This document shows positions 35,954 to 39,199 of a stretch of DNA of 64,000 nt, piece by piece (position 1 is the stretch's first letter; each line of letters opens with the position of its first letter). The stretch is from an uncultured bacterium (GTDB lineage Bacteria > Hydrogenedentota > Hydrogenedentia > Hydrogenedentales > CAILVY01). The position numbers and the translations under genes are program-made. The DNA lies in the NCBI GenBank assembly GCA_937951485.1, contig CALEDJ010000016.1:62001-126000 (forward strand), in the 5' to 3' direction. Under the pieces are notes generated by a model, which saw nothing but the letters and a program-made list of their open reading frames with translations, ran no database searches and was not told where the DNA came from.

Positions 35954-36435
35954 GATTCCGGTGTGGCGTCAGCCGGCCCGGCTTCCGGGGCCGCCGCGTC
36001 CTTTTTCATTGCGACGAAAGCGCGCATGGCCAGCCAGGTCACAAGAAGGAATATCGGCAGATCAACCAGGAAGCCGACCAGGTATGCGAAATAGCGGGCC
36101 TTGAAAATGAAAAGATAGAGGTATCCCAGGCTGGAACAGGCCTTGGATGCCATGTGCATATAAGCCAGAATGCGGATTTCCGGCGAGGCGGCGGCCGAAA
36201 ACGCGATGATTGCCAGCATCACCATCATGGAGGTCGCCAGGGGCACCCAGAAATGCTCGCTGCTTTGCGGGATGACCTCCACCAGACGGATGACTTTCGG
36301 TATTAAATTCATCAGCCACAGCACCCGGTCCGGAAAGAAGAAAAACAGTAACGCACCCAACACATAGAGCAGTCCCAGAATCCGCATTATCGTGACATAA
36401 TTCGCTATGGCCGCCGGCTTCTCTGTTCCTTCCAT
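35950..36435 (-). CDS. Four-helix membrane protein of unknown function
   Basis: A 161-residue protein with four hydrophobic segments (residues ~15-40, ~60-80, ~88-112 and ~117-143) and a short Ala/Pro/Glu-rich tail. The start at 36435 is preferred over upstream in-frame ATGs because GGGTGG lies six bases before it and the extra N-terminal residues would be non-homologous and basic. No family is recognised. Its stop overlaps the start of the beta-rich gene downstream, forming a two-gene unit that may continue to the glycosidase-like gene 128 bases further on. Confidence 0.7.
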   Translation of the reverse strand: MEGTEKPAAIANYVTIMRILGLLYVLGALLFFFFPDRVLWLMNLIPKVIRLVEVIPQSSEHFWVPLATSMMVMLAIIAFSAAASPEIRILAYMHMASKACSSLGYLYLFIFKARYFAYLVGFLVDLPIFLLVTWLAMRAFVAMKKDAAAPEAGPADATPES

Positions 36436-36626
36436 CGGTCCACCCTTTCTCGATTGCACGCTTCCAGTATCCATAGGATACCGCACCGGCCTTTGGAATG
36501 CACGAGCGCCCGGGTGGTTGCCAGTGAAACATCCCCGCCACAAGGCATATGGAAGCCTTGCTTTGTGGAGGGTTTTCTGCATCCGTCGCAATCCCCCGAG
36601 AAGGATATCGCCCAAAAAGAAAGGGA

Positions 36627-36705
36627 CGCCGTCGCCGAGAGAGGGAGGGGGAGAGGCGGGAAAGCGACGGCGCCAATCCCGCGCAGTGGGGGGAACTGCG
36701 CGGGA
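36627..36705 (-). other. Two strong hairpins downstream of the 30-residue peptide gene
   Basis: A perfect 11-bp stem TCCCGCGCAGT / ACTGCGCGGGA (36677-36687 with 36695-36705, 7-base loop) is followed in the leftward direction by a 9-bp stem CGCCGTCGC / GCGACGGCG (36627-36635 with 36664-36672) enclosing a pyrimidine tract on the minus strand. Immediately after it the minus strand reads tccctttcttttt, so the second hairpin may terminate the peptide transcript. This fills the 36436-36745 spacer, which otherwise holds no gene. Confidence 0.55.
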
Positions 36706-36745
36706 GGTAAACGAAAGATACTGTTACTCCGGGCTGTTTGACGTA

Positions 36746-36838
36746 TTAGAAAAGCCCGGTGAAGAAAGAAACGAGGGCTTCCCAAATGCCGGTGAAGAAG
36801 CCCAGAATTTCCTTCCATAGATTTGCAAACCACTCCAT
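36746..36838 (-). CDS. 30-residue Trp/Phe-rich peptide with two 11-residue repeats
   Basis: ATG at 36838, stop TAA at 36746. An ideal ribosome site AAGGAG lies seven bases before the ATG. The peptide repeats an 11-residue block, LWKEILGFFTG (residues 7-17) and IWEALVSFFTG (18-28), after a head MEWFAN and before LF. An 11-residue period equals three helical turns, so the peptide should form an amphipathic helix with Trp, Phe, Ile and Leu on one face: a membrane-surface or curvature-binding helix. No homologue is known to me. It could be a regulatory membrane peptide, a toxin or a signalling peptide; function is not assigned. The structured RNA at 36627-36705 lies just downstream. Confidence 0.6.
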   Translation of the reverse strand: MEWFANLWKEILGFFTGIWEALVSFFTGLF

Positions 36839-37006
36839 GATTCGTCTCCTTTTATGTTGGTTCCGTTGATTCTGTTCCCCGGCACCCTGTCGCCGGATTC
36901 CTTCATCAATACCATCCGGATTCAAATTTGTTACATCGCCGTTTCCCGCCCCACAACTGCGCCGCCGCCATATGCCGTTTGAAGCGGGCAATGGGTGCGG
37001 TCTAAG

Positions 37007-39199
37007 ATGCCGTTCATGGCCTCCGCGCAAGACACAGATCGCTCCCCATTTCGCTTCTTTCTGGCGTTGGGACTGGTGTTTCTTGCGGCCTTGCTGACGC
37101 GGCTCTACGGCATTCACCGCGAATCCCTGTCCTTCGACGCCTTCACCAGCGTGGTCCACCTGCACCCCCAACAGTCGGTCAAGGCCTCCCCCTATTACGA
37201 CCGTTGGCGGGCCGCAACAGGGGCGGAGGCGTGCGACTCGGTATGGGAATATCTCCGGCGCAATCGCTTCCTGGACCCGGCATCCATGCCCGCCTACTAT
37301 TCGCTGGCCTATTTCTTCAACCGCCATGTCAGTCAATCCTTGCTTGCGTTGCGTCTGTTCTCGGTGGGGATGGGGATGGCGGTCGTTTTCTTGCTGTATC
37401 AATGCGGGCGGGAATTGTTTGGCCGGCGCGCCGGGCTGATCGCCGCCGCCTGCGCCGCGTTGTCGCCGGTGCACTGGTATTATTCCCGCGAGATTCGGGT
37501 CTACGGCTTTCTGGCGCTGGCGGCAATGGTCCACCTCTATACATTTCAGCGCCTGGTGCGGGGTGGTGGAAAACATTGGTGGACAGTGCACGGAATTGTG
37601 ACGCTGCTGCTGGTCTGGACGCATCCCTTCGCCGTGTTGATCCCCGTTGCGGAAGCGCTTTTTCTTGCGGGCACACACTGGCGCGACAGGCCGCTCCTGC
37701 GACGCTGGGGTATCTTGCAGGCGGCGCTTGCGTTGCCGGCGCTCGCCTATGTATTCAGCATCAGTTACTGGTCCCCCGCCGCCACCCCGTGGATGGTCAC
37801 GCCGTCGCTCCGGCATTTCCTTGGTGACCTGCTTGCGGATGATATTCTGGGGCTGAGTTTTCAATTCCGACCCGATGCCGCCACGTGGGCGCGGATAGTC
37901 CCGGAGGCCGCCGCGCATCGGGTGGTCGGATGGCATGGCCGTATCGGCTGGGTGATGCTGGCCCTGACCTTGGCGGGGGTGCTGTGGGCGATAGTCTCGG
38001 CCGCCCGGCGGCGCATTGCCGCAAAGGATGCGCCGACAACCTGGCGCTGGACCGTTCTCCTGCTGCTCTGGTGGTTGCTGCCCCCGTTGCTGCTCTACGC
38101 CGCGTCGCACCTGTGGCGGCCCTGCATCTGGCCGCGCTACACGCTGTATGCCTCCTTCGGGCTTTATCTGCTGCTGGGAGCGGGGCTGGCGCAACTGCCG
38201 GGGCGGCTGGTGCGGGGAGCAGCCGTAACGGCGCTGCTGGTTTTGTACGCCTGTCAGCAGATGCTGGTGCTGGACGCGGCGCAGGACCGGGACTGGCGCG
38301 CCGCTGCGCGGCATATCCTGGCGCACGGCACACCGGACGACTTCATCGTGTATCAGGACTGGCTCTTTCACCGGGGGTTCCTTTATGAAATGGGGCCTGC
38401 GCCGCAAGTCAGCACGTATGCCAAAACGGTGGAAGGACTTGCGGAATTGACCGCTTTCGTCGCGGGATTGAAAACGAGGGGGCCGGATGATCCCCGGTCC
38501 GTGTGGGCGCTGATGGAAGTGGGCGCCACGCCTGTCGGCTCTGACGTACTCGAGTCCAGATTGCTCGCAGCGGCTCTGTCCTTCTCCGTGCGGGAATTCG
38601 GCGGGCTGCCGCCGCTGCGACTGTATCAGGTGCGGCGGGGGCAGGCCGCGCCGCGCCTCTCATCCCGGGATGCGCTGCCCGAAGACATTTTCAAAGACTG
38701 CACTGACCTGGCGATGGCGTTCTGGTGGGCCCAAGACATGCCCGCCGCGGAAGCCGCCGCGCGCCGCGCCCTGGATTTTCACAATGACTATGCGCGCGCA
38801 TGGCTCTATCTCGGCCTCGCGCTTGCCGAACAGAAAAAACACGGCGCGCACAAGGCCCTCCTGCGGGCGACCGCGCCGCCCCATCATGATTTCAACGCGA
38901 TGGAATTCGCCCTGCTTTCCCGCGGCCTGCTCCGGACGGGGGACCCCGAACAGGCCTCGGCCATGGCGGCCTCGGCGGTCATTTCCGACCCCAATCATCC
39001 CGCAGGATATTACGCACGGGCGGCCATCGAGCACGCCCGAGGAAATGAAGAAGAAAAACAGGCCGCTTTGACAATGGCCCGACGCAGAGACCCCCATGCC
39101 CGTCGCATGAACCCGGCGGTCATACTGGGGCCGGAGTTTTTTGTAAAGGACAGAAAGGATGAAAATTACATAAATAATATAAATGATAATCGTAGGTGA
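37007..39199 (+). CDS. GT39-like membrane glycosyltransferase with TPR-like tail
   Basis: About 730 residues. The N-terminal ~460 residues contain some ten hydrophobic helices in the arrangement of PMT/ArnT-type enzymes that move sugars from polyprenyl phosphates on the outer face of the inner membrane (AALLTRLYGIHRESLSFDAF, ALRLFSVGMG, AALSPVHWYYSREIRVY). In relatives the first loop carries an Asp-Glu pair; here the place reads Asp-Ala (SFDAF), so activity is uncertain. The last ~180 residues look like tetratricopeptide helices (AMAFWWAQDMPAAEAAARRA, AWLYLGLALAEQKKHGAHKA). The start is uncertain: ATG at 37007, GTG at 36995 or ATG at 37016; no strong ribosome site separates them. Confidence 0.8.
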   Translation: MPFMASAQDTDRSPFRFFLALGLVFLAALLTRLYGIHRESLSFDAFTSVVHLHPQQSVKASPYYDRWRAATGAEACDSVWEYLRRNRFLDPASMPAYYSLAYFFNRHVSQSLLALRLFSVGMGMAVVFLLYQCGRELFGRRAGLIAAACAALSPVHWYYSREIRVYGFLALAAMVHLYTFQRLVRGGGKHWWTVHGIVTLLLVWTHPFAVLIPVAEALFLAGTHWRDRPLLRRWGILQAALALPALAYVFSISYWSPAATPWMVTPSLRHFLGDLLADDILGLSFQFRPDAATWARIVPEAAAHRVVGWHGRIGWVMLALTLAGVLWAIVSAARRRIAAKDAPTTWRWTVLLLLWWLLPPLLLYAASHLWRPCIWPRYTLYASFGLYLLLGAGLAQLPGRLVRGAAVTALLVLYACQQMLVLDAAQDRDWRAAARHILAHGTPDDFIVYQDWLFHRGFLYEMGPAPQVSTYAKTVEGLAELTAFVAGLKTRGPDDPRSVWALMEVGATPVGSDVLESRLLAAALSFSVREFGGLPPLRLYQVRRGQAAPRLSSRDALPEDIFKDCTDLAMAFWWAQDMPAAEAAARRALDFHNDYARAWLYLGLALAEQKKHGAHKALLRATAPPHHDFNAMEFALLSRGLLRTGDPEQASAMAASAVISDPNHPAGYYARAAIEHARGNEEEKQAALTMARRRDPHARRMNPAVILGPEFFVKDRKDENYINNINDNRR

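Follow-up and report, generated by a model that had tools for sequence, protein, structure and literature searches.

The window, by which we mean the whole 64,000-nucleotide stretch of DNA that was analysed, comes from a genome of Candidatus Hydrogenedentota and carries on its minus strand a gene for a tiny peptide. In the direction of transcription, the unit is made up as follows.

36910..36935 (-): ECF-sigma-type promoter-like site TGTAAC-N16-GGTA; the same hexamer and 16-nt spacing occur before relatives and before other peptide genes
36846..36853 (-): Shine-Dalgarno site AAAAGGAG, recognised from sequence; GGAG-like sites occupy the same place in most relatives
36746..36838 (-): gene of 30 codons plus stop, MEWFANLWKEILGFFTGIWEALVSFFTGLF; profile matches in 14 of 68 genomes and synonymous-biased change in close pairs
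36677..36705 (-): hairpin 1, 11 bp with a 7-nt loop (UCCCCCC), from folding; C-rich loops lie at a like place in G001 and G010
36625..36674 (-): hairpin 2, terminator-like, with a 12-13 bp stem and a 26-nt C/U-rich loop, from covariation; the hairpin RNA model R1 scores E 5.8e-13 here
36613..36624 (-): T-rich tract CCTTTCTTTTTG after hairpin 2, recognised from sequence; a T-rich tail is found in most aligned relatives

The 30-codon frame and its ribosome site had been proposed in an earlier, sequence-only reading and both are confirmed, the site AAAAGGAG running from 36853 to 36846. The two 11-residue repeats, LWKEILGFFTG and IWEALVSFFTG, are as described there and are identical at 5 of 11 positions. 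The amphipathicity of the peptide exceeded that of all 1000 shuffles of its own letters, and AlphaFold2, run on the single sequence, returned one helix spanning residues 2-29 (mean pLDDT 94), which bears out the proposed amphipathic helical character and supports the prediction of a single amphipathic helix. The peptide carries a net acidic charge and shows neither a leader nor a processing site, its gene is present in single copy, and neither Pfam nor NCBIfam gave a match above cut-off to a known small-protein family. The reading frame is open far upstream of the ATG (637 aa); despite this, conservation in relatives shows that the peptide frame is not due to chance. Within the window the tiny peptide is the end of a 553-aa frame (36746-38407, minus strand) antisense to a long plus-strand gene, and a gene finder could mistakenly call the long version.

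Conservation was investigated in draft and metagenome-assembled genomes. A search of 60 relatives turned up short frames preceded by ribosome-site-like sequence, and a profile search at E <= 1.6e-7 revealed relatives of the peptide in 14 of the 68 genomes from the phylum. The frame is kept in these 14 together with its start, ribosome site and repeat register; the relatives are genes of 27-41 aa, with W8, W19, F26 and F30 invariant. Two further profile matches were obtained at E of about 0.005, one of which (G061) also has the promoter, and two other candidates (L021 and L023) were discarded as chance protein matches. Codon change in the closest pairs is mostly synonymous, with 2 synonymous and 0 nonsynonymous changes between G011 and G059, and 6 and 2 between G049 and G055 (dN 0.036, dS 0.77); these counts leave out the G001 rows, and dS between distant pairs is saturated and carries little information. 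Outside the closest pair, identity was 0.09-0.40 in the flanks, 0.49-0.81 in the coding region and 0.60-0.91 in the hairpin, and in most close pairs the hairpin-region DNA is at least as conserved as the coding region. On these sequence comparisons we regard as confirmed a real, protein-coding 30-aa gene that is conserved in part of Hydrogenedentota, a phylum that has been little studied. Annotation routinely skips genes this short, and the conserved start, ribosome site, hendecad register and frame support the earlier suggestion of a genuine small gene of the kind usually overlooked.

The region 3' of the gene folds well beyond chance (z -4.58, 0/200 shuffles). An 11-bp hairpin had been noted downstream and was found at 36705-36677; its sequence is not conserved in relatives beyond G001 and G010. 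The second hairpin and its T-rich tract are likewise present, the stem having 12 pairs and a 26-nt loop rather than the 9 bp first reported. An alignment of 11 sequences revealed 13 pairs in this hairpin, with 95.8% of cells paired, and six pairs changed on both sides, compared with 2.5 in shuffled and 0-2 in slid alignments, so that at the sequence level the hairpin is conserved as well as the gene. Across four families its loop keeps a C-rich core around which CGCCU is invariant. For an intrinsic terminator such a loop is unusually large, and a simple scan for loops of 3-8 nt does not list hairpin 2; the invariant CGCCU suggests a further role beyond termination. In eight loci no Rfam model reached its gathering score. 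The idea that a 5' leader loop might touch the 3' loop was dropped, since the window's own 3' loop has no matching ACCC.

Strong copies of model R1 occur in 11 genomes, each just after the gene for this peptide. The match in G010 was found by the RNA alone and has TGTAAC, AGAAGGAG and MGIVEAITDLIGGILNLIGDILGTLFGWLPFV upstream, the last specifying a short amphipathic peptide that the peptide profile did not detect. Since this RNA-only match carries promoter, ribosome site and amphipathic peptide, the peptide-hairpin unit is independently supported. It is weaker than the copies in the 11 genomes, and R1 also matched a stand-alone second copy in G002. The second C/U-loop hairpin in G002 (L072, G002:C45:42450-42511) is roughly 1 kb away from the first and has no visible peptide frame ahead of it, and C/U-loop hairpins were also observed after a CsbD-like small gene (L073, G010:C308) and a PDZ-protease-like gene (L064, G021:C77). 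Weak R1 matches in G057, G021, G044, G031:C109 and others were rejected, as they either lacked a peptide of this kind upstream or scored too weakly to be used. G054 and G031 possess peptide and promoter with ordinary hairpins, as do sibling peptide genes in G049 and G055, and we therefore consider the C-rich loop to mark one branch and not to be essential to the class.

The promoter-like site TGTAAC-N16-GGTA, absent from the sequence-only reading, sits 97 nt upstream of the peptide ATG. The layout with exactly 16 nt recurs before nearly all relatives, the variants being CGTAAC (G011, G059) and TGTAAT (G012); the motif, as sequence, is thus shared. In the leaders of six f10 units (L010, L014-L018; A4 columns 44-57) a common box resembling GGCAAGGGTTTCAG was seen between promoter and ribosome site. 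A strict promoter plus ribosome-site pattern gave 39 matches in 68 genomes, compared with 8 for the reversed pattern, and a relaxed promoter pattern gave 46 compared with 9 for the control, adding further peptides (L204, L210, L211, L213 and L214). About half of the genomes searched yielded no such peptide under either pattern. In the host genome the relaxed pattern found an ECF sigma factor gene and nothing else convincing, and three of the other exact promoter matches there (L046, L049 and L050) were set aside, being in or beside unrelated frames.

Eight of the 39 strict matches belong to the present peptide family and the remaining 31 differ from it. Among the latter, 13 precede short peptides of another sequence, 30-53 residues long, amphipathic or hydrophobic and mostly acidic; the rest comprise one 51-residue MKHI-type peptide, two ECF sigma factors and 15 other frames, about twice the control expectation, of which a few may be real. 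The pattern searches themselves made no selection on the encoded product. Each of the 28 peptides examined has a net acidic charge, and 26 of them surpass their shuffled versions in hydrophobic moment (p < 0.05). In the loci examined, starts with a ribosome site were short, hydrophobic and amphipathic in 31/75 promoter-linked cases versus 8/728 others, a contrast inflated by the fact that loci were partly chosen for peptide or promoter. The search by promoter and ribosome site in this way connects fast-evolving small proteins that lie beyond the reach of sequence comparison.

Several other small frames were observed. The host genome has a second small amphipathic frame (L048:1083-1217, minus strand, G000:C23), MNQERFMMRGFLSVIEEVVNAILRAVVSILAALGIDVTIDPIDL, with a GGAGG site; it lies about 300 nt after another TGTAAC-N16-GGTA and ahead of a strong hairpin. 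A second class of short peptides, with an MKHI/MKHT-like start and a basic N-terminus (L135, L201, L208, L209, L215, L218 and L022), occurs in several genomes, most of its members downstream of the same promoter pattern. Tandem peptide genes were present at L130, L134, L129 and L128, the second amphipathic frames having their own ribosome sites.

The candidate regulator came from the same motif. The gene at L092/L137 encodes an ECF sigma factor; this protein and its host ortholog (G000:C34:142862-143434) contain Sigma70_r2 and Sigma70_r4_2 domains and no region 3. The TIGR02937 superfamily model was passed. The SigW equivalog model was not reached (77.8 bits against a cut-off of 243.1). Clear orthologs exist in nearly every genome of the phylum searched, and most have TGTRAY-N16-NGTA at about the same distance as the peptide promoter. 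A matrix built from 23 peptide promoters was run across the 160 nt that precede each of 49 ECF genes, with other stretches of the same loci as controls: 39 of the 49 had a site scoring beyond the controls' 95th percentile and 26 beyond their 99th, and the sites mostly lie 92-99 nt ahead of the start. The ECF genes of G011 and G059 had revealed the promoter link and are not independent tests. By this measure the ECF gene carries what reads as the regulon's own promoter, that is, it would be autoregulated. Most ECF genes read TGTGAT-N16-TGTA instead of the TGTAAC-N16-GGTA of the peptide, so two related sigma factors could be involved; as a class the ECF-peptide promoter link appears strong, which stops short of proving that one sigma factor serves both. 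G037 has a second ECF paralog, and a peptide gene is located a few hundred bases away from it. The gene after the host ECF gene overlaps it and has a TM-like stretch and TPRs; this second gene of the operon gave no anti-sigma match in Pfam, and it could be an anti-sigma factor.

From these data we propose, as the probable reading, that the locus belongs, as a small-protein gene, to the regulon of an ECF sigma factor, with tiny membrane-surface helices serving as stress effectors. A stress signal would free the ECF factor, which would activate its own gene and the peptide genes; recognising TGTRAY-N16-NGTA, the autoregulated factor would transcribe an mRNA of about 300 nt. Control of the peptide gene by the candidate sigma factor is suggested by the sharing of the motif. 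The translation product, an acidic amphipathic helix some 30 residues long with no leader, would accumulate and lie on the membrane surface, where it might fill or sense packing defects or tune an envelope protein; this action at the membrane is deduced from the character of the peptide. Because the charge is acidic, the helix would more plausibly insert hydrophobically where packing is defective than kill as cationic peptides do. The terminal hairpin would end the transcript, and the C-rich loop of this hairpin, large and unpaired, may in addition bind G-rich leaders on other mRNAs. The gene and the compact peptide-hairpin unit of the sequence-only reading are retained here, while the promoter, the wider set of peptides and the sigma factor had escaped it. 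The shared promoter makes an orphan peptide into a regulon with a candidate sigma factor, and suggests that tiny proteins make up a membrane-stress response not described before. Searches of the open-licence literature turned up no paper on Hydrogenedentota ECF factors or small proteins.

The transcript might instead be chiefly regulatory, a dual-function RNA that encodes a peptide but acts mainly through pairing of its C-rich loops with G-rich leaders or ribosome sites on other mRNAs, in the way of staphylococcal RNAIII. The invariant CGCCU and C-rich core of the hairpin 2 loop, the C-rich loop of hairpin 1 in the host, G001 and G010, the high conservation of the hairpin DNA relative to the coding region, and precedents elsewhere (PMC2837412, PMC5869019) all speak for it; G054 and G031, however, keep peptide and promoter with ordinary hairpins. 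Because 12-nt loop complements were not enriched in six genomes (8 non-self matches versus 19 in the control) and Hfq was not found in the host genome, we treat a trans-acting role as possible but somewhat unlikely. A broader scheme, in which a phylum-wide stress response has fast-diverging tiny acidic amphipathic peptides as its chief recognisable product and one branch relies on a dual-function RNA that controls other mRNAs through its large C-rich loop, independently of Hfq, strikes us as rather unlikely. A leaderless secreted peptide, that is, an exported surfactant, antagonist of other bacteria or signal resembling phenol-soluble modulins, would account for products that are short, leaderless, amphipathic, fast diverging and several to a genome; with mostly acidic charge, unconserved flanks and no conserved neighbouring transporter or immunity gene seen, we judge it quite unlikely.

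Size, hydrophobicity and strong RNA structure would also suit a type I toxin that damages its own cell's membrane and is restrained by an RNA antitoxin. The peptide is net acidic, however, the gene is single-copy with a shared ECF-type promoter, and no sigma-70-like antisense promoter was located in 36400-37100 (a weak test, confined to the sigma-70 type), leaving this reading highly improbable. The membrane-surface peptide is thus the best fitting of the three functions first proposed, neither the toxin nor the secreted signal having gained specific support. Scarcely credible is a leader peptide with an attenuator of a downstream gene: the short frame, the terminator-like hairpin and the same-strand frame that follows in the window resemble one, yet the residues of the peptide are themselves conserved, what follows the unit lacks conservation, and the next frame in G017, judged from sequence, is on the other strand.

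Under the favoured reading of an ECF-controlled membrane peptide, the closest regulatory parallel is with ECF regulons such as that of SigW, whose consensus in B. subtilis is TGAAAC-N16-CGTA. The promoter layout, the predicted autoregulation and the two-gene sigma operon are alike; in Hydrogenedentota the recognised outputs differ in being tiny amphipathic peptides. The RNA has other counterparts. Staphylococcal RNAIII, whose C-rich loops bind ribosome sites, similarly combines an amphipathic-peptide gene (delta-hemolysin) with C-rich-loop hairpins in one short transcript, which is inferred in our case (PMC2837412). RNAIII is under quorum-sensing control and belongs to a different phylum, whereas here the promoter is of ECF type, the peptide is net acidic and unrelated in sequence, and any RNA target is putative. 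GsrN of Caulobacter, a stress RNA tied to an alternative sigma factor, binds the G-rich katG leader through a C-rich loop (PMC5869019); it is described as a small RNA acting via a 5' loop, whereas the Hydrogenedentota loop is in a 3' hairpin and a conserved peptide is encoded. VcdRP of Vibrio cholerae (PMC8672173) is a dual-function RNA with a 29-residue small protein; sequence, phylum and control differ, and the dual RNA function is putative here.

Phage tape measure proteins have the same W..I..FFTGIWE wording as the peptide. A collection scan beyond Hydrogenedentota with a 5-row peptide alignment returned other frames, nearly all of 446-1214 aa, and identity with tape measure proteins was rejected, the Hydrogenedentota relatives being stand-alone genes of 27-41 aa. 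In unrelated bacteria FFTGIW(E/D) turns up again in frames that are mostly long and tape-measure-like (L026-L045), probably through convergence.
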